Below the pieces are notes generated by a model. That model had not been told where the DNA came from and did no database searches. It saw only the letters and a program-made list of their open reading frames with translations. A program made the position numbers and the translations under genes. Positions 19,797 to 31,930 of a stretch of DNA of 42,029 bases are shown in pieces. Each line of letters opens with the position of its first letter. The first letter of the stretch is position 1. The stretch comes from Candidatus Rokuibacteriota bacterium (GTDB lineage Bacteria > Methylomirabilota > Methylomirabilia > Rokubacteriales > CSP1-6): contig JACQWB010000256.1 in the NCBI GenBank assembly GCA_016209385.1, forward strand, positions 1-42,029, written 5' to 3'.

Positions 19797-21227
19797 TCAC
19801 GGGGCCTCGAGGTTGCTCTTGCCAATGGGGCGTTCCACGACCTCCCCCACCCCACGAATTCCCGGCAGAAGCGTGAACTCCGCCTTCTCGTTCTCCCGCG
19901 GCTCCATCAGCGCTTGAGGGTCGGGGATCGACGCAGAGCCGGGCGGCGGCGGCGTCACCAGCTTCACCGTCACCAGGAAGAGCAGCTCGGTTTCGTTGTT
20001 CTGGAACCGCGTGCTCCTGAAAAGCGCGCCCAGGATCGGGATGTCGCCGAGCAACGGGACCTTGGACACGGACTGCCGGACCTCGTTGTTGACGAGCCCG
20101 GCGATGGCAAAGCTCTCGCCGTCCCTCAGGTTCACGGTGGTGAAGGCGTGGTTCTTTCGCAGCACCGGGATGGCGAACCCCGAGGCGACCAATCCCTGAG
20201 TGAAATCGAGGCTCGAGACCTCCGGCATCACCTTCAGCGTAATGCTCTGATCCTCCTGCACCACGGGGGTGAAGACGAGACCCACCCCGAACTCCTTGAA
20301 CTCGATCGTGATGGTGTTCTCGCGCTGGGCGATGGGATACGGGAACTGACCGCCGGAGAGGAACCTGGCTTCCTTGCCGCTCTGGGTGATCAGGTTGGGC
20401 TTCGCCAGGGTTCGGAGCAGGTTCCGCTCGGCCAAGGCCCGCACGACAGCCGCGTAGTCGCGTTGCCCCGAGGCCAAAAACAAGTCGGTCCCCAGAAATC
20501 CGAAGTCGGGCGTCGAGCGGCCGACCACCGATCGCTTCCCGCTTTCGGTGACTGCCCCGAGCGTTCCGAGAGGAGTCGAGAAGCTGGAGCCCGGGAAGCT
20601 GCCGCCCTGGAGGGCCTGGCCGAGCGCCCGAATACTGAAGCCAAGCTCGCGCAGGGCCTCGCGGGCGACCTCCGCCACATGGATCTGGATCAGCACCTGC
20701 TGTGGCTTGGTATCGGTCAAGCCGACGAGATTGATGACCTTGCCTTTGGGCGCGAAGACGGCAGCGACCTCCGCCGCGGCCGTCATCACCGCCGCGCTGG
20801 ACACCTTCCCGGTGAGGATGATCGCGTCCTTCGCCGGCTGCGCCCGAATCTCGTCGCGGGGGGCGATCTCACTGAGCCGCTCGTTGAGGAGCGCGATGTC
20901 GGACTGGATAACCAGGTCGAAGAACAGGGTCTTCGCCGGGTAGAAGACGACGAGCGACGTGACCCCGACACCCTTGCCGTTGATCAGGATCTGGTTCGGT
21001 GTGATGACGAACACGTCCGCGATGTTGGGGTCGGAAACCGAGACCCGGGTGAACGGTTCTTTCAGCTGGAGCACCTGCGATTTCCCGATGGTCGCCTCGA
21101 GGCGAACAAGCCCTTGCTCGGCCGCGACGCCGGGGCTGGTCACGAGCACCGTCGCGACCAGGAGCCCGAGGACGGTCAGGCTCCGGAGGCCATGGTGTTG
21201 CGCGCGTGCTCCGTCTGCCCGCCTCAC
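19797..21227 (-). CDS. cpaC: Tad/Flp pilus secretin CpaC (RcpA)
   Basis: Outer-membrane channel for the Flp pilus, 476 residues. Order: signal peptide (LTVLGLLVATVLVTSPGVAA), the pilus-formation N-terminal domain with VSVSDPNIADVFVITPNQILINGKGVGVTSLVVF (residues 60-95), a BON-like segment, then the secretin domain from about 260 (AERNLLRTLAKPNLITQSGKEARFLSGG) to the signature VPLLGDIPILGALFRSTRFQNNETELLFLVTVKLV. Typical CpaC length. The ATG overlaps the upstream gene's stop (ATGA), so the two are coupled. The operon starts at a sigma-54 promoter at 21784. It is separated from the assembly genes by a hairpin at 21916. Confidence 0.93.
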   Translation of the reverse strand: MRRADGARAQHHGLRSLTVLGLLVATVLVTSPGVAAEQGLVRLEATIGKSQVLQLKEPFTRVSVSDPNIADVFVITPNQILINGKGVGVTSLVVFYPAKTLFFDLVIQSDIALLNERLSEIAPRDEIRAQPAKDAIILTGKVSSAAVMTAAAEVAAVFAPKGKVINLVGLTDTKPQQVLIQIHVAEVAREALRELGFSIRALGQALQGGSFPGSSFSTPLGTLGAVTESGKRSVVGRSTPDFGFLGTDLFLASGQRDYAAVVRALAERNLLRTLAKPNLITQSGKEARFLSGGQFPYPIAQRENTITIEFKEFGVGLVFTPVVQEDQSITLKVMPEVSSLDFTQGLVASGFAIPVLRKNHAFTTVNLRDGESFAIAGLVNNEVRQSVSKVPLLGDIPILGALFRSTRFQNNETELLFLVTVKLVTPPPPGSASIPDPQALMEPRENEKAEFTLLPGIRGVGEVVERPIGKSNLEAP

Positions 21228-21754
21228 CGGCGAGTCACGCCCTGCGCGCTTCGGCCTGCGTGCGGGTCATCGCTCTCCGTTCGCGCAGAGCCGAGCTCAA
21301 CCCAGAACTGATCGTCGTCGCGGACGAAGAGGTGGCTGGTCACCCTGTCCGCCCGATGGACCAACACCGTATGGGGCTCGGAGCTTCGGATCGGCTCCCG
21401 GCCGGCCAGCGTCGGGGCCGGCTGCACCACCACGTCAACCTGACGGACCTTCCTGGGTGAGAAGACGACCAGCGAGGTGACTCCGGCGGCTTTCCCGTGG
21501 ACCAGGAGCTGGTGGGGGGTGACCACGTGGACGTCCGCAATCTTCGGGTTGGCGACTGACACCTTCGTGAACGCCGCTCCCGGCAGGACGATGAGATGAG
21601 ATTTGTCGACGGTGAGGTAGAGGCGCGTCGGGAGTGGCTCGCCCGCCGGGCCTGGCCCGGGAGCGATGCCCACCAGACCGATCGCGGTCAGGAGTCCCAC
21701 GAGGATCTGGCCGGCGAGGCCGTGCAGTCGCGAACGCATGGATGGTCTCCGCAT
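21224..21754 (-). CDS. Stand-alone pilus N-terminal domain protein (secretin-N-like)
   Basis: A 176-residue secreted protein consisting of a signal peptide (LAGQILVGLLTAIGLVGIAPG) and one copy of the same N-terminal domain found in CpaC: VSVANPKIADVHVVTPHQLLVHGKAAGVTSLVVF, nearly parallel to the secretin's own VSVSDPNIADVFVITPNQIL. A C-terminal stretch of about 60 residues has no match I recognise. Starts at 21754 or 21739 are both possible. It overlaps cpaC by 4 bp. It looks like a duplication of the secretin N-domain; it could form an extra periplasmic ring or act as a pilotin-like partner. First gene behind the sigma-54 promoter. Confidence 0.82.
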   Translation of the reverse strand: MRRPSMRSRLHGLAGQILVGLLTAIGLVGIAPGPGPAGEPLPTRLYLTVDKSHLIVLPGAAFTKVSVANPKIADVHVVTPHQLLVHGKAAGVTSLVVFSPRKVRQVDVVVQPAPTLAGREPIRSSEPHTVLVHRADRVTSHLFVRDDDQFWVELGSARTESDDPHAGRSAQGVTRR

Positions 21755-21783: not shown

Positions 21784-21799
21784 TGCAGAGTCCATGCCA
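21784..21799 (-). promoter_or_regulatory. Sigma-54 promoter of the secretin operon
   Basis: On the - strand: TGGCATGGACTCTGCA, matching the -24/-12 consensus TGGCACG-N4-TTGCA with the essential GG and GC exactly ten bases apart. Transcription should begin near 21773, about 19 nt upstream of the first start codon. Confidence 0.75.
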
Positions 21800-21850: not shown

Positions 21851-21889
21851 CGTCGCAGGCTGCGACAGAAGCCTGTCGCATCTGTCGCG
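21851..21889 (-). promoter_or_regulatory. Enhancer (UAS) for the NtrC-type activator, secretin operon
   Basis: GTCGCA-GGC-TGCGAC palindrome centred at 21859, then half-sites TGTCGCA (21874) and TGTCGCG (21883). The centre is 60 bp upstream of the -24 element, the identical distance seen at the flp enhancer, and the half-sites also align without gaps. Confidence 0.75.
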
Positions 21890-21999: not shown

Positions 22000-22626
22000 C
22001 TAGAACAGGCCAGGGAAGAAACGATACGCAACGACCTTTCTGTAGGCGCGGTATTCGGGGTCTTGCCCGAGATGGTGCTCTTCAACCCAGGCCCGGAGCA
22101 CGAGCCCGCACACGATCCCGTACCAGGGGACCACATTGTAGGGGGAAAGGTTCGTCAGGAGGAAGCCCGTGAAGAAGATGAGCTCGCCAGCATAGAGGGG
22201 ATGGCGCACCCAGCGGTAGGCGCCGGAACGCTTGATCCCCCGGTTGGCGGCCACGATGCCGAAGCTGGTCCCCAGGCTCGTGAGCGCGCCGACCATGATC
22301 ATGAGCCCGACGCCCTGGAGACCGGAGCCCACCGCGTGCCCGACCGGATGCTGCCATTCGCCGGGTCGAAACATGATCGGGAGCGCCATCGTCACGATCG
22401 CCGCCGCCCAGTCCCGCACCCGGGTGGAGGTGGACAGGCTGGGGCGACGCGCGATCGTCACACCTACCAGAAGCGTGTTGAAGGCGACGAGGCCGAGCAG
22501 GATCAGTGACCCCGTGTTGGCCCACCGATGGTAGGCATCGACGGCGACCTTTACCCACAGCAGGGCCAGAACGACGTTCCCTCCGCACCGACAGGCGAGG
22601 CGAAAGAGTGCTGGCGCGCGACTCAC
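22000..22626 (-). CDS. Isoprenylcysteine carboxyl methyltransferase-family membrane protein
   Basis: A 208-residue membrane protein with about five hydrophobic segments and the ICMT/PEMT C-terminal signature: GAYRWVRHPLYAGELIFFTGF, then EEHHLGQDPEYRAYRKVVAYRFFPGLF. The RHPxYxGE and the late Glu/Arg pair form the SAM-binding face in the family, which methylates small molecules, phospholipids or C-terminal cysteines. It overlaps tadC by 4 bp (ATGA) and is the last gene of the flp operon. That coupling suggests it modifies a pilus component or lipid near the assembly machine, though it could be a passenger. Target unknown. Confidence 0.83.
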   Translation of the reverse strand: MSRAPALFRLACRCGGNVVLALLWVKVAVDAYHRWANTGSLILLGLVAFNTLLVGVTIARRPSLSTSTRVRDWAAAIVTMALPIMFRPGEWQHPVGHAVGSGLQGVGLMIMVGALTSLGTSFGIVAANRGIKRSGAYRWVRHPLYAGELIFFTGFLLTNLSPYNVVPWYGIVCGLVLRAWVEEHHLGQDPEYRAYRKVVAYRFFPGLF

Positions 22627-23573
22627 CGCGCGATCGCGTTCAGCGCCTTGAAAATCGTGATGTAGGAGGGCCCGAGGAGCACCAGCAGCGTCGCGGGGAA
22701 GATCAGCAGAACCAACGGGAACACCATCTTCACCGGGATCTTGGCTGCCTGCTCCTCGGCCTGTTGGCGCCGTTTCGTTCGCAGGCTGTCCGCGTGGACG
22801 CGGAGGGCTCGACCGATGCTCGTTCCCATCTTCTCCGCCTGGACCAGCACCACGATCAGGGACGACAGCTCGGTCAACTCCACCCGCTCCTTCAGCGCCA
22901 GGAGGGCCTCAGACCGCGGCCGGCCAGCCCGCGTGTCGTGGTGGACGATCTGGAGCTCCTCGCTGAGCGCCTGTTTTGTGAACTGCCGTTCCTGCGCCAC
23001 GCGCTGGATCGTCGCGTCGAGGCCGAGCCCGGCCTCGACACACACCACCATCAGGTCAAGGGCATTCGGGAGCGCGTCGGTGATCTCCTCTTGCCTCGAC
23101 TTGACGTGCCGAAGCAACCACCAATGGGGCACGAAGAGACCCGCCCCCACCGACACGAGGACGACGGCCAGCCCGCGGACTCCGTTCCACGCCATGAGAT
23201 GCGGCGCGATGAGCAGGGCCGCGGCGGCCAACAGCCCCGCCAGCAGGACTCGGCACCCCCGGAAGATGAAGACCGCGTTCGCCCTGCGGTGTCCGGCCTG
23301 CACCAAGAGCTTCCGCCACGTCGATTGAGCTTCCGGATCCGGGGGCGTCAGCGTCCGTCCAAGCCACTCGACGAGCCGCTCGATTCGACCGACGAGATGG
23401 CGTCGGCTCCCCGTCGACGTCGGGTGCACGGGCCCTGGATTCGCGGGGATTGCGCCGACCTCTCGAAGCCGGGTGACGTGCGCCTCGGGCGCGGGGATCA
23501 GCAACGCCAGGACGACCGCCACGCCCAGCGCCGTCCCGATCAAGGTGAACGCGACCGCGAGGAGAATCACCAT
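22623..23573 (-). CDS. tadC: Tad pilus inner-membrane protein TadC
   Basis: Type II secretion F-family platform protein, 316 residues. It has hydrophobic segments near the N-terminus, around 105-160 and at the C-terminus (VFPLVLLIFPATLLVLLGPSYITIF). The diagnostic GspF region is LPNALDLMVVCVEAGLGLDATIQRVAQE and LVQAEKMGTSIGRALRVHADSLRTKRRQQAEEQAAKIPVKMVFPL, which is TadC-specific. It partners TadB to form the platform on which TadA acts. Start 10 bp after the tadB stop. Confidence 0.93.
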   Translation of the reverse strand: MVILLAVAFTLIGTALGVAVVLALLIPAPEAHVTRLREVGAIPANPGPVHPTSTGSRRHLVGRIERLVEWLGRTLTPPDPEAQSTWRKLLVQAGHRRANAVFIFRGCRVLLAGLLAAAALLIAPHLMAWNGVRGLAVVLVSVGAGLFVPHWWLLRHVKSRQEEITDALPNALDLMVVCVEAGLGLDATIQRVAQERQFTKQALSEELQIVHHDTRAGRPRSEALLALKERVELTELSSLIVVLVQAEKMGTSIGRALRVHADSLRTKRRQQAEEQAAKIPVKMVFPLVLLIFPATLLVLLGPSYITIFKALNAIAR

Positions 23574-23583
23574 GCGCCTACCG

Positions 23584-24540
23584 TCAGATCTTGATGGTCA
23601 TGATCCGCTTCATGACGAAGAACCCGAGGACCTGCATCACCACGGCGGCCGCCATCAGGGTTCGCCCAAGCTCCTCTTTGAACAGGACCATGATCAGGTC
23701 CGGGCGAAGGAGATAGATCATCACCCCGATGGCCAACGGCAGGGCGCCGATGATCCGGCCGGTGAGCCGGTGCTCGGCCGACAGCGCCCGGATCTGCCCG
23801 AGCAACCTGTAGCGCTCGCGAATTGTGCGGCTCGCGTTTTCGAGGATCTCGGTCAGGTTGCCGCCCACCTCGCGCTGAATCAGCACTGCCGTCGCGAACA
23901 AGTTGAAGTCCAGGTTGTCCACCCGGGCCGCATGGGCCTGGAACGCCTCCCGGAGGCTGTGCCCCAGGCGGAGGGCTTCAAAGGTCATCCGGAACTCCGT
24001 CGCCGCCGGCTCAGGCATCTCCCGGGCCACCGCCTGGAGCCCCTGCATGAATGACTGGCCCGCCTGGAGCGCCCGGGTCAGCACGTCGAGGGCATCGGGG
24101 AGCTGTTCGGCGTAGCGGCTCAAACGGGCCCGCCGCCGCCGGAGCACGTAGAGGGCCGGGACGCCGCCAATGGCGCCCGTCGCGAGGATGGACCAGAACC
24201 ACGACGAGGTCAGCAGCCAGGCCAGCTGGCCACCGAGGATCGCCAGGAGCAGGATCACGCCGAGCACCATGCCCACCGGCTGAGAGATCTCCGCCTGATC
24301 GAGGCGTTGCCTGAGCGTGCTCGCCAGGGGTACGCGACTCAGCCAACGGTGGAGCACGGGAACGGAGCTCATCGTCTCGTCGCGAAATACGCGCAGAATC
24401 GGGCCGCGTTTGCCCGACGGGCTGAGCCGCTCACGCACCAGTCGGAGGGGAGACCGCCGAATGCCCTCCCACACCGACGCGCCGCCCAAGATCATCAGCA
24501 CGGCGGCCAGGAAGGCCAGCCCCATCGCCGCGGGGAGCAT
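23584..24540 (-). CDS. tadB: Tad pilus inner-membrane protein TadB
   Basis: Second F-family platform protein, 318 residues. It has an N-terminal membrane segment, a pair near 95-135, the GspF block LPDALDVLTRALQAGQSFMQGLQAVAREMPEPAATEF, and FNLFATAVLIQREVGGNLTEILENASRTIRERYRLLGQIRALSAEHRLTGRI, the TadB form of the signature, with two C-terminal membrane segments. It begins three bp after tadA's stop. Confidence 0.93.
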   Translation of the reverse strand: MLPAAMGLAFLAAVLMILGGASVWEGIRRSPLRLVRERLSPSGKRGPILRVFRDETMSSVPVLHRWLSRVPLASTLRQRLDQAEISQPVGMVLGVILLLAILGGQLAWLLTSSWFWSILATGAIGGVPALYVLRRRRARLSRYAEQLPDALDVLTRALQAGQSFMQGLQAVAREMPEPAATEFRMTFEALRLGHSLREAFQAHAARVDNLDFNLFATAVLIQREVGGNLTEILENASRTIRERYRLLGQIRALSAEHRLTGRIIGALPLAIGVMIYLLRPDLIMVLFKEELGRTLMAAAVVMQVLGFFVMKRIMTIKI

Positions 24541-24543
24541 CGC

Positions 24544-25923
24544 CTACTCGGGAGCGTCCAGGCCGTCCTCGAACAGGTCGCCCGGCAGCGCAATGCCGGC
24601 CGCGCGCAGGCGGTCGGCGAACTTCGGCCGGATTCCCGTGGCCCTGTGGCGCCCGACCACCATCCCCAGCTCGTTGATCCCCTCCTTGTCAAAGGCAAAG
24701 ATATCCTGCGTCGTGATGACGTTGCCTTCCATCCCCACGATCTCGGACACGGTCATGATCTTTCGTGTCCCGTCGCTCAAGCGGGCCAGCTGGACCACCA
24801 GATCCAGGGCCGAAGAGATCCATTCCCGGAGGGCGCGCTCCGGAATGTTGATCCCCGCCATGAGCACCATCGTTTCCAATCGCGTGAGCGCATCGCGCGT
24901 GGAATTCGCGTGGATGGTGGAGAGCGAGCCGTCATGCCCCGTGTTCATCGCCTGGAGCATGTCGAGCACCTCGCTGCCACGCACCTCGCCGACGATGATG
25001 CGTTCCGGCCGCATGCGCAGGGCATTCCGCACCAGGTCGCGCTGGCTCACGACTCCTGTCCCCTCGAGGCTCGGGGGCCGGGTCTCCAGGCGGACGACGT
25101 GCTCCTGGTGGAGGTGCAGCTCCGCGGAGTCCTCGATGGTAATGATCCGCTCCGTCGGCGGGATCGCACCGGAGAGGACGTTCAAGAGGGTCGTCTTGCC
25201 GGAGCCGGTCCCCCCGGAGACCAGGATGTTCAAGCGGGCGCGGACCGCGCCCGTCAGCACCTCTGCCATCGCCGGGGGCAGGGTCTGCAACGCCAGCAGG
25301 TCGGTCAGCCGCAGGGGATCCTTGCCGAAGCGACGAATCGAGAGCACGGGCCCTGTCAGCGAGACCGGCGGGATGATCGCGTTCACGCGTGAGCCGTCCG
25401 GCAGCCGAGCATCCACCATCGGAGAGGCTTCGTCCACGCGCCGGCCCACTCCCGCGACGATGCGGTCGATGATCTGCATCAGGTGCGCGTCGTCTTTGAA
25501 CACCACATCCACGGGCTCGAGCTTGCCAAAGCGTTCTACGTACACCTGCCGGGGGCCGTTCACCAGGATGTCCGAGATCTGGGGGTCGTGCATCAATGGC
25601 TCAAGGGGCCCGAGGCCGAGAGTCTCGTGCAGCACCTCCACGATCAGCCGCTCCCGCTCCATTTGGCTCAGCGGAGCCGTCTCCGCCTGAACGAGCCCCT
25701 CAACCGCCCGCGTGATTTCCGACGCCAGCACCTCGTGCGGGATGCGCGAGAGATTGGAGAGATCGAGGCTCTCCACGAGCCGGCGGTGGATCCGTGACTT
25801 CAGCTCCTGATAGGCATCGCGCGGCGGGCGCGCTTCCGCCTGGACCACCACCGGAGGCCGGAATTCGGCGGCTGTCTGGGCAGCAGGCCTCAACGTCCGG
25901 GTCAAGCGATCACGGAGCGTCAT
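24544..25923 (-). CDS. tadA: Tad pilus assembly ATPase TadA/CpaF
   Basis: Cytoplasmic hexameric secretion ATPase that powers pilus extension (and in some Tad systems retraction), 459 residues from the ATG at 25923. Landmarks: N-terminal [42 protein letters not shown], Walker [18 protein letters not shown] (about residue 240), the Asp box [11 protein letters not shown], Walker B-region [30 protein letters not shown] with the His box. The start overlaps cpaE by 4 bp (ATGA); extending the frame upstream would run across cpaE and give nonsense. Confidence 0.95.
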
Positions 25924-27128
25924 CGAGCCGAGATGCTCGCGGGTCTCGCGCGAAAGAAGCCGAGCAGGCCTTTGGACGCGTGAGGCTCCGGCACCGCGCC
26001 CCCGCTCCTTCGGTCGAGCTTGGTCGCCAGCGCGCTCACGTGCGTGCCGAACGGGGAATTGGTCCCGTTGCGCGCGAGCGGTGCATTGGCGAGCACCGAC
26101 GCCATCACGGTCCCATCCTCGGGGAAATCCAAGAACACCGGACGGTGAAGAACTTCCTCGGCCATCTTGACCGCCTTTCCGAGCGGAAGGGCGCATCGGT
26201 TGAGGAGGACCTTGATCTTGTCCGGACCGTACCCGACCTGATCCAGAAGATCCAAGCACCGCCGGGCATGGTACAGGGTCGAAAAATCGGGTGAGACCAC
26301 GACGAGGAGCTCGTCGGTCGCGTCAAAGACTGAGAAGAGTCGCTCATCGTACGTCGGGGCGGTATCCACGACCACGTAGGCAAAACTCGCCTTGAGCAGC
26401 GTGAGGAGCTGGCTGATCCCGAGCGGGGTGATCCGGTCGATCTCCTCGATCTTCTGCGGCGCAGCAAGGACGGATAGCCCCGACGGATGGTGGCACAGAA
26501 GACTCTTCAAGAAGAGGGCATCTAGCCGGTCCAGGTTCTCGACCGCATCGGAGATGGTGTACGAGGGCTTGAGGCTGAGGAAGAGGCCGAGGTCGCCCGC
26601 CTGCAGGTCGAGGTCCACGCCGACCGCAGGCGCACCGGACTGGGCGAGCGCGACGGCAAGATTGAGGGCGAGGACCGTGGTCCCGCGTCCGCCTTTGCAC
26701 CCGAACAGTGTGATCACCTTTCCGCGCGAGGCGGACTCGGCGCTGGCGAGGGCCCGCTGGCGGGCGACGCGCTGGATCGCGGCGATGAGGTCCGTCCGGC
26801 TCACCGGTCTGACGAGGAACTCCCGGGCCCCGGCCCGCACCGCCCGCAGGATCGTCTCGGCCCGCTGGCCCTCGGCGCTGACGAAGACCGCGCTCCGGGG
26901 GGACGCGACCAGCAGCCGCTCGACGAGAGCGAGGTCCGGATCCGGCGGACTCCCGAGGTCGAAGATCACGATCGCCGGCTTCAGCTGGTTGACGAGCTGG
27001 TATCCAGTCTCCGGATCGGCAGCCTCAGCCTCCACGCGCACCGTCGCCGTGTCCGCGAGCAATTCCCGAAGCGCGCGGCGGCGGGCGGGGTCGCGATCGA
27101 TGATCAGCACGGGGAGCGTGTCGGACAC
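25920..27128 (-). CDS. cpaE: Tad pilus localisation protein CpaE/TadZ
   Basis: A 402-residue two-domain protein. Residues 1-115 form a receiver-like domain ([51 protein letters not shown]) that keeps an Asp in place of the phosphoacceptor. Then a ParA/MinD ATPase: [23 protein letters not shown] and [28 protein letters not shown]. The deviant Walker A reads KGGRGTT: the P-loop Lys that follows Gly in KGGxGKT is Thr, so ATP hydrolysis may be lost while binding remains. TadZ proteins place the pilus machine at the pole. The GTG start has no strong ribosome binding site and lies 17 bp after the tadG stop. Confidence 0.9.
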
Positions 27129-27145
27129 GTTGCCGGGTCCTGTCT

Positions 27146-28246
27146 CTACTGCACCAGCTGGACCGCCTTGAGGAGGGAGCATACGGCGTTGGGTGTTCCT
27201 CCCCGGCTGGGGACGAGGGTATAGCGACCGATGACATCCCCCTCGGAGGTCAGGCCCTCGAGAAAGAAGCCCCCCACGTTTCCGACGACGATCTGCTTGC
27301 GCCCGGACATAACCGGATACCGCGGATCGAAGAACGAGATGCGGACGAGCCGCGGGCTGCTCACCCCGAGGGGCGAGTTCAAGCAGTTGCATTCCGGGTC
27401 CCAGAACGCGGTCGGGTCCTGGTCGATCAGGGCCTGCACGCCCTGCTGGGTGGGTCCCACCATGTTGCCGGGTTCGACCTTCAGCTGGTCGCCAACCGAC
27501 ACGAAGGTGCCCGGCGCGCAGGTGAGGATGTTCTCACGATAGGCGTCAGCACCCACGAGAGGAGTCCCCCGGTTAATGGCAGGAAAATCAACAGGGTAGA
27601 AGATGCTGGGGACGATGGTCTCGCTCGGCGAGCCGACTTTGAGGACGACCCTGACGCCCTGGTCGGCGGGATACCGGTAGCCTGTCGCGCCGGGCTCGGT
27701 CGGCGGGGTGTAGGTGTCGATTGCCGGGTCGAATTCCCCGTTACCGTCCCGATCGATCCACCGATCAGGCGGTGACCAGGGCTTGAAGCAGTCGCTGCTG
27801 CACGTGTTGACCAGCCGCGCCGTTGCGGTGGCGGCCACATCGGCGGTGGTCCGCCCCAGGCCGAAGAGCTGGAGAACCGGGAGCATGAAGAGCTGCATGG
27901 GATTCCGATGGGTCACGTCTCGGTAGGTCACACACCGGACTCCATCAGGCGTGGAGCCCCCGTTGCTCGACAGCGACACATCAACCTGCTCCGGCGTCAG
28001 CAGTTGCCCGATGATGGGGGTCCGGCCCGCAAACGCTTTCGCGTCGGCCACCGCCTTCGCCTCGCTGAGGAACAGCGCGTAGGCGCCCGCCAGCGCGCCC
28101 GCGTCGGCGGCCGTCTGAGCCTGCTGCCTGGCGACGTAGAGGTACGGGAGGTCGGTGGCCAGCCCGGCGAACGCAATCAGGGTTGCGAGGCCGGCGGCGG
28201 CCCAGATCAGGATGCTGCCCCGTTCATCCCTCAGCGACTCTCCCAT
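27146..28246 (-). CDS. TadG-like pilus assembly protein
   Basis: A 366-residue protein with the Tad N-terminal signature: short basic start, RGSILIWAAAGLATLIAFAGLATDLPYLYVARQQAQTAADAGALAGA as the membrane segment, and a following amphipathic stretch of the TadE/TadG family. The remaining 300 residues are periplasmic, with six or more cysteines (NTCSSDCF, ILTCAPG, CNCLNSP), so disulfides are likely. A DRDGNGEFDPAID stretch looks like a calcium-binding EF-hand-like loop. It starts 30 bp after cpaB. In Tad systems TadG is an accessory of assembly and surface attachment. There is no von Willebrand domain, as some TadG have. Confidence 0.8.
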   Translation of the reverse strand: MGESLRDERGSILIWAAAGLATLIAFAGLATDLPYLYVARQQAQTAADAGALAGAYALFLSEAKAVADAKAFAGRTPIIGQLLTPEQVDVSLSSNGGSTPDGVRCVTYRDVTHRNPMQLFMLPVLQLFGLGRTTADVAATATARLVNTCSSDCFKPWSPPDRWIDRDGNGEFDPAIDTYTPPTEPGATGYRYPADQGVRVVLKVGSPSETIVPSIFYPVDFPAINRGTPLVGADAYRENILTCAPGTFVSVGDQLKVEPGNMVGPTQQGVQALIDQDPTAFWDPECNCLNSPLGVSSPRLVRISFFDPRYPVMSGRKQIVVGNVGGFFLEGLTSEGDVIGRYTLVPSRGGTPNAVCSLLKAVQLVQ

Positions 28247-28276: not shown

Positions 28277-29098
28277 TCACTCCAGCGGGTGGGTCTCGAC
28301 GGTCCGGTTCCCCCCTCGGATGACCTCGACCACGAACGTCTTCCCGCCCCGCCGCTCCGCCACCGCGGGCCGGGGTCCGGCGTGCTGCGTCCCCACCGCC
28401 GCGTTCCTGCGCGCGAGGGGCAACACCGGAACCACCTGCCGGTCCAGAATCGAGCGCAAGACGATGTGAATTTTCCCCTCGTGGAGCGCGAGGGCCAGGC
28501 GCTCGGCCTCCTCGGGTGTCACGGCCAGCGTGACCGTCGGGACCTCCACATGCTGCTCGCCCTTCTGCTCCAAGCGATGCCCGACCGCCAGCACCTCGAC
28601 GTGCTGCAAAATCGTCTCGGAGGCTTTGCTCGTCCCCGCGTCGGTCCTGGTCGCGATCACGTCCACCCGGTTCTTCGGGAGGATGAACCCGCTCACCCCG
28701 ATCACCTCGTTGACGCCGACGGTCATGGCACGCTTGCCCGGCGGAACGATGACGGACATGACGCCGGGCGCCGCGGTCAGATCTTTCGGGAAGAGCCGAT
28801 GCTCGAGCACCGGCTCGTCGCGTGCAATCGCCCCTTTCGCGACCCGGCCCACAATCGCGTGCGGTTCGGACACGGCTCCCTGCGGAACCCCGGCCTTGGG
28901 CCACGCTCGCACGGCCACCAGGTCGGTGCTGACACGAGCTCCGAGAGGGATGTCCGCCGCGGCCACCACGACGGGCCGGAGCTCGATCGTGGCGGCGCGC
29001 GCCAGCTGCTCCTGCTGCCGGACGTAGCGCGCAACGAGGTAGCTCGCGAGCAGCCCGCAGAGCAATGCCACGCCGAGGATGAACCCCGCGCGCCTCAT
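28277..29098 (-). CDS. cpaB: Flp pilus assembly protein CpaB/RcpC
   Basis: A 273-residue membrane-anchored periplasmic protein that stabilises the secretin. N-terminal segment GFILGVALLCGLLASYLVARYV, then an SAF-type domain: ELRPVVVAAADIPLGARVSTDLVAVRAWPKAGVPQGAV, and the RcpC block VPPGKRAMTVGVNEVIGVSGFILPKNRVDVIATR, then VTLAVTPEEAERLALALHEGKIHIVLRS. This is a normal RcpC layout. The ATG at 29098 follows repeat copy F directly; the repeat's GGAGGCGAGG lies about 8-12 nt upstream and may serve as ribosome binding site. Confidence 0.93.
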   Translation of the reverse strand: MRRAGFILGVALLCGLLASYLVARYVRQQEQLARAATIELRPVVVAAADIPLGARVSTDLVAVRAWPKAGVPQGAVSEPHAIVGRVAKGAIARDEPVLEHRLFPKDLTAAPGVMSVIVPPGKRAMTVGVNEVIGVSGFILPKNRVDVIATRTDAGTSKASETILQHVEVLAVGHRLEQKGEQHVEVPTVTLAVTPEEAERLALALHEGKIHIVLRSILDRQVVPVLPLARRNAAVGTQHAGPRPAVAERRGGKTFVVEVIRGGNRTVETHPLE

Positions 29099-29240
29099 CT
29101 CGGGCCTCGCCTCCGTCTGATTTGCTCGGGCCTCGCCTCGTCGCTGGCGCCGGCGATGAAGCTGCCGGCGCCGAAGCGCCTCGGCTCGAACTGCCATGCC
29201 TGCGGCTCGTTGGGAGCCCCTCGGCTGGAACGTCCACGGT
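29099..29240 (-). repeat. Dispersed GC-rich repeat, long form, copy F
   Basis: Fills the tadE-cpaB gap. It has perfect 9-bp hairpin arms GGCGCCGGC/GCCGGCGCC around GATGAAGCT (29146-29172). The nearest relative is copy E; copy C has the same hairpin with one compensated pair. It ends adjacent to the cpaB start codon. Confidence 0.8.
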
Positions 29241-29254
29241 GTCGCCCCGCGCGG

Positions 29255-29680
29255 TTAGCGTTCATAGCGCATCGTGGCTGAAGCGGTGAGCGGGATGCTC
29301 CCCGAGAAACCGAACCCGAGGATCGGGCCGATTCTCGTCAGAAAGGCGAAGTTGAGATTGGTGGTGACGGTGACCTCAGGTGGCGTGCCGGAGGGGGCCG
29401 TGTTCGCTACAGACGCCCCTGCCAAGCCGGCGGCCACGAGGATCGCCTTCGCTTTATCGATCACCGCGGGGGCATCCGCCGTGAGGCCTTCCGTCGTCGC
29501 CGCAACCCGTACCGCCTCCCGCGTGGCATGGTTCAAAGTGTTTACGACCAGCCAGGCGCGCCCGAATTCGAAAATCCCCAGGGTCAACAGCAAAAACACG
29601 GGGAGGATGAAGCCAATTTCCAGAGTCGCCGTACCTGCCTGGCGCCAGGTGTCCGGGTGACGTCGCCCCCACCCTGGCAT
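29255..29680 (-). CDS. TadE-like minor pilin
   Basis: A 141-residue TadE-family protein. The leader ends in Gly before TATLEIGFILPVFLLLTLGIFEFGRAW, so it has the G/xxxxE processing pattern of a class IVb prepilin with Glu at +5, followed by VVNTLNHATREAVRVAATT typical of TadE. The 141-residue length is normal. The start at 29680 gives a leader of about 18 residues; a further in-frame ATG upstream exists but adds unlikely sequence. Sits between flp and cpaB. Minor pilins prime assembly in Tad systems. Confidence 0.85.
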   Translation of the reverse strand: MPGWGRRHPDTWRQAGTATLEIGFILPVFLLLTLGIFEFGRAWLVVNTLNHATREAVRVAATTEGLTADAPAVIDKAKAILVAAGLAGASVANTAPSGTPPEVTVTTNLNFAFLTRIGPILGFGFSGSIPLTASATMRYER

Positions 29681-29803
29681 CGGAGCTACTGTCGAAAAGG
29701 GTGGATGTCCAGGGGTCGGACATGGGACCCGGCCCCCGGTAGGTGGCATACACCGTCCGGAGGCCGAGCCCCGGTCCATGGCACCCTCGGGATTCGAGCG
29801 GAA

Positions 29804-29959
29804 CTATGGGGCCAGAGCCGCGACGATGGTCTGGTAGGCTCCGACCACCGCGTTCCCGATGGGAGTCAGGAGCGCGACCGCCGCCGCGATGACCAGGGCG
29901 GCGTAGATCCCGAACTCGGTGACCTGTGCTCCCTTCTCTTCCCTCAGTAGCCTCATCAT
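29804..29959 (-). CDS. flp: Flp major pilin
   Basis: A 51-residue Flp prepilin. After a short basic leader MMRLLREEKG the mature protein begins AQVTEFGIYAALVIAAAVALL: cleavage after Gly, Glu at +5 and Phe at +6 where most Flp pilins have Tyr. The rest is one hydrophobic helix with a small polar tail, as usual. The start is set by AAAGGAG seven nt upstream. First gene of the assembly operon, behind a sigma-54 promoter at 30135 and an unusually long leader (about 165 nt). The prepilin peptidase (TadV/CpaA) is not in the window. Confidence 0.92.
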   Translation of the reverse strand: MMRLLREEKGAQVTEFGIYAALVIAAAVALLTPIGNAVVGAYQTIVAALAP

Positions 29960-30134: not shown

Positions 30135-30150
30135 AGCAAAGGGTGTGCCA
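30135..30150 (-). promoter_or_regulatory. Sigma-54 promoter of the flp operon
   Basis: On the - strand: TGGCACACCCTTTGCT, with the conserved GG and GC ten bases apart and a near-perfect TGGCAC and TTGC. This is the closest match to the sigma-54 consensus in the window. Confidence 0.85.
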
Positions 30151-30201: not shown

Positions 30202-30240
30202 TGTCGCAACGTGCGACACGCGACTGTCGCGACCGTCGCG
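30202..30240 (-). promoter_or_regulatory. Enhancer (UAS) for the NtrC-type activator, flp operon
   Basis: Perfect palindrome TGTCGCA-ACG-TGCGACA (30202-30218), then half-sites TGTCGCG (30225) and CGTCGCG (30234). The centre is 60 bp upstream of the -24 element. It lies immediately after the stop codon of the activator gene. Confidence 0.8.
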
Positions 30241-30241
30241 G

Positions 30242-31738
30242 TCAGCCGGATTCGCTGGTTCTGATGTGATCGGGCCGGAGCCCGAGGGCCATGACCTTGC
30301 GGTAGAGCGTGGCCCGGTGGATTCCCAGCACGCGCGCGGCCCGGCTGATGTTCCACTGCTCGCGGCGCAGGACCTCGAGGACGTGACGCTTGTCGATCTC
30401 AGCGAGCGTCTCGGGACCGACCAGGGGACCCACGTCGCTCGGCGTGATCGCGCGCAGGACGCGCGGGGGAAGGCTCTCGGGCGTGAGGGCCGGCCCGAGC
30501 GTCAGGATGGAGGCGCGCTGGATCACGTTCTCCAGCTCGCGCACGTTGCCGGGCCAGGGGTAGGCGCTGAGGAGGGCCAGACAGTCCGGCAGAATCTCCT
30601 TGCCCACCATTCCAGCAGCTTGGCAGAACCGTTCCACGAAGTGGGTGGCCAGGAGCGGGATGTCTTCTTTTCGCTCCCGGAGGGCCGGGAGGTCAATCTC
30701 GACGACGCTCAGGCGGTGGAAGAGGTCGCGGCGAAACGCGCCCTCTTCCGCCATGGCAACGAGGTCCCGGTTCGTCGCGGCGATCACCCGGGTATCGACA
30801 TTGACCGCAAGATTCCCGCCGATACGTGTCACCTGACGATGCTGGAGGAACCGAAGGCACTTGGCCTGGACGTCGTGCGGCAGCTCGCCGACCTCGTCGA
30901 GGAAGAGCGTGCCCCCGTTGGCCTCCTCCACCTTGCCCCGCCGTTTGGCCACGGCGCCGGTGAACGCCCCGCGCTCGTGGCCGAAGAGCTCGCTCTCGAA
31001 CAGCGAGACCGGCACCGACGGGCAATCGACGACGACGAGGGGGCCCGCGGCGCGCAGGCTCCGGGTGTGGATCAGGCGGGCCACCAGCTCCTTGCCTGTC
31101 CCGCTCTCCCCCGTGATGACGACCGTGGCATCGGTCGGCGCCACCAGCTCGACGATCTTCCGAACCGCAGCGATCTTCGGATCGACCCCGAGGAGCGTGA
31201 GTGGGAGGGAGGCCCGATCTCCGCTGGCCGCCCGCACCGCTTCGGGCCGTCCCTTCGCGCACTGGAAGGCCACAGCCCGTCGGGCGACCTGCTCGAGCTC
31301 TGAGAGGTCGATGGGCTTTCGCAGGTAGTCATGAGCGCCCAGCTTCATGGCGGCGACGGCGCTCTCGACATCCGCGTAGCCCGTCAGCACTACCACCTCG
31401 ATGTCGTACCCGACGGTTCTCACGGCCTTCAACACGTCCAGGCCATCCATACCCGGCATCCTCAGGTCGAGGAGGAGAACCTGGAAGCTCTCAGCCCGAA
31501 TCAGCCGGAGGGCCTCCCGTCCCGACGCCGCGACCGCCACCCGGTGCCCGAATCCGGTCAGCGCCTCCCGCAACAGCTCGCGCATCACCGGCTCGTCATC
31601 AACGACCAAGATCTTCAGCGCGCCCGGTGGGTTGAGGGCTTCCGGATCCTGAATGGCGTCGGCCGCGGCAGGAATGCTGGCGCGCGACGCGAGGGCATGA
31701 TCGGAAAAAGACGAAGGGATGAGGGTTTCTGGTGCCAT
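30242..31738 (-). CDS. NtrC-family sigma-54-dependent response regulator
   Basis: A 498-residue enhancer-binding protein. Receiver domain from about residue 42 (ILVVDDEPVMREL; phosphoacceptor Asp91 in LLLDLRMPGMDG; VVLTGYADVESAV; the Lys of DYLRKPIDL). AAA+ domain: Walker A GESGTGKELVARLIH, the sigma-54-contacting ERGAFTGAVAKR intact, GGTLFLDEVGELP Walker B, RIGGNLAVNVDTRVIAATNRDL and YPWPGNVRELENV. C-terminal Fis-type HTH: ISRAARVLGIHRATLYRKV. An N-terminal extension of about 40 residues has no motif. ATG 31738 has AGGGAGGA upstream; the mRNA leader carries a c-di-GMP-type riboswitch. It probably activates the two sigma-54 promoters of the Tad locus. No histidine kinase gene is adjacent. Confidence 0.95.
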   Translation of the reverse strand: MAPETLIPSSFSDHALASRASIPAAADAIQDPEALNPPGALKILVVDDEPVMRELLREALTGFGHRVAVAASGREALRLIRAESFQVLLLDLRMPGMDGLDVLKAVRTVGYDIEVVVLTGYADVESAVAAMKLGAHDYLRKPIDLSELEQVARRAVAFQCAKGRPEAVRAASGDRASLPLTLLGVDPKIAAVRKIVELVAPTDATVVITGESGTGKELVARLIHTRSLRAAGPLVVVDCPSVPVSLFESELFGHERGAFTGAVAKRRGKVEEANGGTLFLDEVGELPHDVQAKCLRFLQHRQVTRIGGNLAVNVDTRVIAATNRDLVAMAEEGAFRRDLFHRLSVVEIDLPALRERKEDIPLLATHFVERFCQAAGMVGKEILPDCLALLSAYPWPGNVRELENVIQRASILTLGPALTPESLPPRVLRAITPSDVGPLVGPETLAEIDKRHVLEVLRREQWNISRAARVLGIHRATLYRKVMALGLRPDHIRTSESG

Positions 31739-31741
31739 GGG

Positions 31742-31763
31742 GGTCCTCCCTGTGCGGAAGACC
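31742..31763 (-). promoter_or_regulatory. Hairpin that can mask the regulator's ribosome binding site
   Basis: On the - strand GGTCTTCC and GGAGGACC pair over eight bases (one G-U) with loop GCACAG. The right arm contains the Shine-Dalgarno sequence for ATG 31738. A GGAAG run on the 3' side of the riboswitch P1 helix could compete for the left arm, giving a switch. Confidence 0.6.
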
Positions 31764-31795
31764 ACCATGTCCCCGGGGAGCCTGCCGTCTCCCTT

Positions 31796-31885
31796 CCTTC
31801 GGTAGCCCGGCTGTCAGGACTTGCGACCTGACCCGTGGCTTTGCGCCCCCGCCTCGCGGCGGGTTTGCCCTTTATCGGGAAGGGG
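31796..31885 (-). promoter_or_regulatory. GEMM-I (cyclic di-GMP-I type) riboswitch
   Basis: On the - strand the conserved elements occur in order: AAAGGGCAAACC, then a P2 stem CCCGCC/GGCGGG capped by a GCGA (GNRA) tetraloop, then GCGCAAAGCC, then a P3 stem GTCAGG/CCTGAC, then CCGGGCTACCG. P1 can form between CCTTCC and GGAAGG. The base corresponding to G20 of the Vc2 riboswitch appears to be G, which favours c-di-GMP over the cyclic AMP-GMP variants. It sits between a sigma-70 promoter and the activator gene, about 60 nt upstream of its start. Whether it turns expression on or off is not shown; the competing stems suggest off on binding. Confidence 0.85.
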
Positions 31886-31901
31886 TCTCCGCTATACGTA
31901 C

Positions 31902-31930
31902 ACCGTATCGAGGCGACTCAGCCGTGTCAA
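31902..31930 (-). promoter_or_regulatory. Sigma-70 promoter for riboswitch and activator
   Basis: TTGACA (31925-31930), a 17-bp spacer and TACGGT (31902-31907) on the - strand. Initiation would fall near 31895, about ten nt before the riboswitch, leaving the aptamer intact at the 5' end of the transcript. Confidence 0.6.

Follow-up and report, generated by a model that had tools for sequence, protein, structure and literature searches.

A predicted c-di-GMP-I riboswitch in the leader of a sigma-54 activator gene beside a Tad pilus locus

Riboswitches of the GEMM-I (c-di-GMP-I) family have been published in both directions of switching (PMC6366702, PMC9262584). The best-studied translational member, Vc2, is an OFF switch (PMC7371385, PMC9262584), and its target, tfoY of V. 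cholerae, places regulators among the genes already known to be under riboswitch control (PMC7371385). In C. difficile, c-di-GMP riboswitches act on surface appendages, as Cd1 on the flgB operon and Cdi-2-4 on pilA1 (PMC6366702), and a GEMM-Ib RNA stands ahead of pilM in G. metallireducens (PMC9262584). At the protein level, c-di-GMP acts on NtrC-family activators such as FleQ, VpsR and their relatives (PMC8125075, PMC7371385). Here, we describe a locus in which a GEMM-I aptamer lies in the leader of an NtrC-type sigma-54 activator gene next to a Tad pilus gene cluster. The window, by which we mean the whole stretch of DNA that was analysed, corresponds to contig C256 (42,029 bases), one of the 310 that make up a 4.57-Mb genome, and all features described below lie on its minus strand.

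An earlier note, made from the letters alone, had recognized a GEMM-I leader in this DNA and named the Rfam GEMM covariance model as the way to check it. A cmscan search returned both RF03167 (c-di-GMP-I-GGC; 31797-31879, 69.7 bits against a gathering threshold of 59, E 1.3e-14) and RF01051 (c-di-GMP-I; 71.1 bits, cut-off 35), the RF03167 alignment running the full length of the model (positions 1-80). The P1, P2 and P3 motifs and the GCGA loop of P2 occur in GEMM-I order exactly where the note had placed them. Together they form a three-way junction with a GNRA (GCGA) loop on P2, an outer P1 in which 31884-31878 pairs with 31797-31791, and a core that contains GCAAACC and GCAAAGCC and retains the G20-equivalent. 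The proposed layout is inexact at one point, an inserted G that lengthens J1/2 to 7 nt (AUAAAGG, 31869-31875). We assign c-di-GMP as the predicted ligand on the basis of the aptamer family, the G20-equivalent and the presence of diguanylate cyclases with the canonical Asp: the genome encodes five GGDEF proteins, and the four inspected are canonical GD, which speaks against Hypr-type cGAMP enzymes. Judged from its sequence, the window RNA is very probably a c-di-GMP riboswitch.

The J1/2 insertion raises the alternative that the aptamer has degenerated or changed its ligand preference, in which case the downstream hairpin would impose a constant low level of translation and the activator would obey its kinase only. 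J1/2 is 6 nt long in 101 of the 102 related aptamers in which it could be measured, the window being the sole exception, and equilibrium folding of the leaders (below) shows no dependence on ligand. Against this alternative, the helices and the remaining core positions are intact throughout, the score is well over the cut-off, and the three flanking elements of the proposed switch (A, C and D, below) are likewise intact in the window. The extra G could be tolerated, could weaken ligand binding or could reflect an error of assembly, and we regard loss or change of aptamer function as improbable.

Upstream of the aptamer lies the sigma-70-like promoter that the earlier note had identified, TTGACA (31930-31925) and TACGGT (31907-31902) separated by 17 nt. 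It matches the consensus at 9 of 12 positions, a score that 1.3% of shuffled versions of this 75-nt stretch also reach, and the 90 nt preceding the aptamer contain no sigma-54 promoter. Downstream, the activator AUG lies at 31738, at +58 after the aptamer. A longer open reading frame starting at 31768 is unlikely to be the one used, since the spacing of +58 agrees with the range of 44-72 nt typical of the host's class, into which 79 of 100 leaders fall. Between aptamer and start codon, element C (GGUCUUCC, 31756..31763) pairs with element D (GGAGGACC, 31742..31749), which carries the Shine-Dalgarno (SD) sequence. When partners were swapped among 79 leaders of the class, the C and D arms proved strongly partner-specific (z -18), and on this ground we take the SD-masking hairpin to be real. 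The earlier note had described an 8-bp hairpin over the SD; those 8 bp are present and their arms co-vary, but the whole structure (CAUGGUGGUCUUCC / GGAGGACCCCCAUG, 31736..31769) is larger than had been claimed, as CAU at 31769-31767 pairs with the AUG and thus the start codon is masked as well. No U-run follows the hairpin in the window, which argues for a translational rather than a terminator-based platform. We are therefore confident in predicting that the leader controls translation of the activator.

How the aptamer would communicate with this hairpin depends on which strand competes with D for arm C. The earlier note had assigned this role to the 3' strand of P1, which would imply OFF logic. 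We instead identified element A (GGAGACC, 31884..31890), which lies 5' of P1 with a one-base overlap and is complementary to arm C over 7 bp, one of them G-U; in many relatives it reads GGAAGACC. In swap tests that only partly correct for relatedness among leaders, and on a set picked by Rfam rather than by activator, the specificity of A for its own C reached z 4.3 (77 leaders), as compared to z 0.1, or no partner specificity, for the P1 3' strand (77-79 leaders). An A:C score of at least 6 of 8 was obtained in 44 of 77 leaders, compared with 9.7 expected with shuffled C arms, and the mean z remained 2.6 with one leader per genus. Element A thus looks like a decoy of D, and the C:D pairing that masks the SD is predicted to exclude, and be excluded by, the A:C pairing, with no terminator involved. 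As far as the literature searched goes, an A/C/D platform of this kind that turns a GEMM-I switch ON is undescribed.

The A:C proposal also predicts the sign of regulation, which cannot be transferred from published GEMM-I switches since those go both ways. Because the partner-specific competitor is the 5' element A, we lean toward an ON switch. Most related leaders serve secreted or adhesin-like proteins and pilins, genes expected to be ON at high c-di-GMP. In the opposite scheme, the P1 3' strand (or GGGAGAC directly downstream) would pair with C in the absence of ligand and leave the SD free, whereas c-di-GMP would close P1, permit C:D and stop translation. The complementarity that this scheme requires exists in the window, and Vc2 provides a precedent for translational OFF switching (PMC7371385). 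Its competing pair, however, is the one that lacks partner specificity, which weakens the OFF logic implied earlier; moreover, folding without P1 leaves the SD masked, and repression of adhesion genes by c-di-GMP would be unusual. Hence, we consider an OFF switch rather unlikely, and the ON reading is the one developed here.

Equilibrium folding did not reproduce switching in either direction. Mean SD accessibility across 70 leaders was 0.21 with P1 forced and 0.21 with P1 forbidden; C:D was always preferred, whether or not P1 was forced, and accessibility was equal in nearly all leaders. For the full-length window leader, forcing A:C together with P1 costs approximately 12 kcal/mol, whereas the same structure costs 0.4-4 kcal/mol before D is made. 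Folding of the nascent RNA revealed only a weak difference in SD accessibility between ligand states. Since equilibrium energies fail to reproduce switching and A:C is cheaper before D is transcribed, we propose kinetic capture of C; in terms of the modeled energies, the window switch is expected to need kinetics or forces outside the folding model.

The gene served by this leader (30242..31738) encodes a 498-aa NtrC-type protein, as had been noted earlier, with a receiver domain (Asp91; Response_reg 8e-32), an AAA+ domain bearing GESGTGKE and GAFTGA (Sigma54_activat 5e-64) and a Fis-type HTH (HTH_8 5e-13). It is followed by two Tad units that between them encode TadA, TadB, TadC, TadZ, RcpC, a secretin and TadE/G by Pfam. 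The first unit opens with a 51-aa Flp-like pilin (MMRLLREEKGAQVTEFGIYAALVIAAAVALL..., 29804..29959), assigned by sequence and position from its pilin-like N-terminus and hydrophobic segment, with no Pfam match. Further along lie TadE (29255..29779; PF07811, 4e-13), RcpC/CpaB (28277..29197; PF16976, 7e-31), a TadG-like protein (27146..28246; PF13400, 5e-9), TadZ/CpaE with a receiver-like and an AAA domain (25920..27392; PF00072, PF13614 and TadZ_N), the TadA ATPase (24544..26259; PF00437, 8e-70), and TadB and TadC (22623..24540; PF00482, 2e-17 and 2e-20). The second unit (19797..21743) encodes a pilus N-terminal-domain protein (PF13629, 4e-16) and an RcpA-type secretin (PF00263, 2e-43).

Each unit is preceded by a sigma-54 promoter, scored against the consensus TGGCAC-N5-TTGCW, and the genome encodes one RpoN. 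The promoter of the flp unit (TGGCACACCCTTTGCT, 30135..30150) has no mismatches; it is the best sigma-54 site in the window and lies in the intergenic stretch after the activator gene. That of the secretin unit (TGGCATGGACTCTGCA, 21784..21799) is a near-perfect match. Exactly 51 nt upstream of each -24 element is an inverted repeat: TGTCGCA-CGT-TGCGACA at 30202..30218, the presumed upstream activating sequence of the flp promoter and the sole perfect copy in the genome, and TGTCGCA-GCC-TGCGACG at 21851..21867, with one mismatch. The pattern TGTCGCA-N3-TGCGACA, which was defined from the window itself, has only these two copies with at most one mismatch in the 4.57-Mb genome. Matches with two mismatches numbered 20, near the background of 14 given by a reversed-pattern control, and were set aside. 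The equal 51-nt spacing and the lack of other copies with zero or one mismatch point to the layout of a locus-specific enhancer-binding protein. Beside the second repeat we also observed further overlapping half-sites (GCGACAGATGCGACAGGCTTCTGTCGCA, window 21890-21849), an arrangement that suggests clustered activator sites.

These promoters and repeats bear out the suggestion in the earlier note that the activator is dedicated to the Tad pilus, and we think it highly likely, on sequence grounds, that it drives both units. It could instead be that the riboswitch works while the activator's chief targets lie elsewhere, its adjacency to tad being incidental. The nearest relative of the activator (62% identity, in G068) has neither a GEMM nor tad genes nearby, and the genome encodes many paralogous activators. 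A scan of genome contigs with the activator recovered distant paralogues only, mostly of 35-47% identity. Against incidental adjacency stand the pairing of a sigma-54 promoter with a repeat at 51 nt ahead of both Tad units, which recurs nowhere else in the genome at that stringency, and the neighborhoods of other Tad loci in the class. Such loci are rare (11 of 95 genomes), yet NtrC-type genes adjoin three of them (L306, L307 and L309) and sigma-54 promoters precede Tad units in L305, L307 and L309; in L305, as in the window, one promoter stands before TadE and another before the secretin. Incidental adjacency therefore seems to us a slim prospect, and we retain the Tad units as the predicted targets. 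None of the loci L305, L306, L307 and L309 carries a GEMM, and on this comparison the GEMM is an addition specific to the window locus.

Across the class, c-di-GMP-I leaders are associated with sigma-54 in a different way. Scoring a promoter as present when its -24/-12 elements matched at 9 or more of 11 positions, we found one upstream of 91 of the 104 RF03167 leaders (for example L178:2008-2088, L187 and L169), compared to 2.4 expected from dinucleotide shuffles. In most cases the -12 element falls 15-46 nt ahead of the first aptamer nucleotide. The identical scan of a control set, 43 of whose 45 members are Geobacterales, gave 3 of 45. The contrast amounts to a coupling, across the lineage, of a second-messenger RNA to an alternative sigma factor. 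Such a coupling, of which the literature searched gave us no description, suggests a single regulatory system under both signals jointly. The genes served, which were named by sequence with a Pfam scan covering part of them, encode mostly secreted, adhesin-like or fibronectin-type proteins, type IV pilins and response regulators.

Four leaders serve NtrC-type activators: that of the window and those of G086:C76, G087:C192 and G048:C106 (L150, L175 and L219). All four carry sigma-70-like promoters and are among the 13 of 104 leaders without a sigma-54 promoter, an association with Fisher p 1.6e-4 that weakens to p ~0.015 when counted as the two independent lineages they represent. The other three activators share 70-98% identity with one another and only 39-43% with that of the window, which indicates that a GEMM has joined an activator at least twice. 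Their loci are not beside tad. The earlier note knew of no riboswitch-controlled activator dedicated to a Tad pilus, and we likewise found none described in the literature searched; the novelty is narrower than this implies, however, as a GEMM precedes an NtrC-type activator at these three other loci of the class. We give about even weight to a broader reading in which GEMM-I would have become a fixed part of the sigma-54 regulon, placed on surface, pilin and signaling genes and also on sigma-70-driven activators, forming a two-level c-di-GMP gate with an A-decoy ON platform.

Two further observations concern the distribution of these leaders. The sole other GEMM in the genome (C168:7507-7587; G000, L178) has the sigma-54 promoter TGGCACGTCGGTTGCG; the frame at +58 is just 75 aa long, and the next gene (membrane protein-like, L178:2428-2856) starts ~340 nt downstream. 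In addition, GEMM leaders occur twice on several contigs, no more than a few kb apart and each ahead of a gene of its own (L154, G055:C32; L166, G044:C46; L168, G033:C16; L205, G022:C22; L171, G052:C46), and some of these pairs seem to have arisen by recent duplication of the leader together with its gene.

Taken together, we propose that a c-di-GMP-I riboswitch gates translation of the sigma-54 activator of both adjoining Tad units, a scheme that as a whole we judge reasonably probable. The leader would be made from the sigma-70-type promoter recognized in its sequence and, by default, the SD and AUG would be locked in C:D, as partner specificity and folding both indicate. Binding of c-di-GMP would close P1 and place element A beside C, where it would capture C during transcription before D emerges, thereby freeing the SD and allowing the activator to be translated. 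The A:C complementarity in this step is comparative, while ligand binding, kinetics and direction are deduced. The activator, presumably phosphorylated, would then bind the inverted repeats that precede the observed -24/-12 promoters by 51 nt and elicit sigma-54 transcription of the flp and secretin units. The earlier note's overall reading survives in the identity of the RNA, its target and the layer of control; its competing strand is probably wrong, and it understated the scope of the pattern. If the scheme is true, c-di-GMP would enter one step above the pilus operon, at activator translation, and an entire adhesion machine would be gated by a single RNA.

Both the aptamer family and the kind of target, a regulator, are thus known already; their regulatory position at this locus is new. 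The locus resembles Vc2 in aptamer family, in masking of the ribosome-binding site and in having a transcriptional regulator as its target (PMC7371385), but Vc2 acts on a TfoX-family regulator as an OFF switch, whereas the window RNA precedes a sigma-54 activator, is predicted to use a 5' element and is likely ON. With Cd1 and Cdi-2-4 it would share the control of a surface appendage, and with Cd1 also a link to a sigma factor, as sigD lies within the controlled flgB operon (PMC6366702). Both of those switches act by transcription termination and are placed on structural operons rather than on an activator gene, and Cdi-2-4 is further set apart as a class II RNA whose target is a type IV pilus. 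The pilM GEMM-Ib of G. metallireducens has the GEMM-I fold ahead of pilus genes and is an ON switch (PMC9262584); it is, however, terminator-based and senses cGAMP, whereas the window RNA retains the G20-equivalent that a c-di-GMP sensor is expected to have. Finally, as with FleQ and VpsR, c-di-GMP would act here on an NtrC-family activator, yet in those cases the protein binds the second messenger, while in the window the mRNA is predicted to bind it and the protein resembles an ordinary response regulator.
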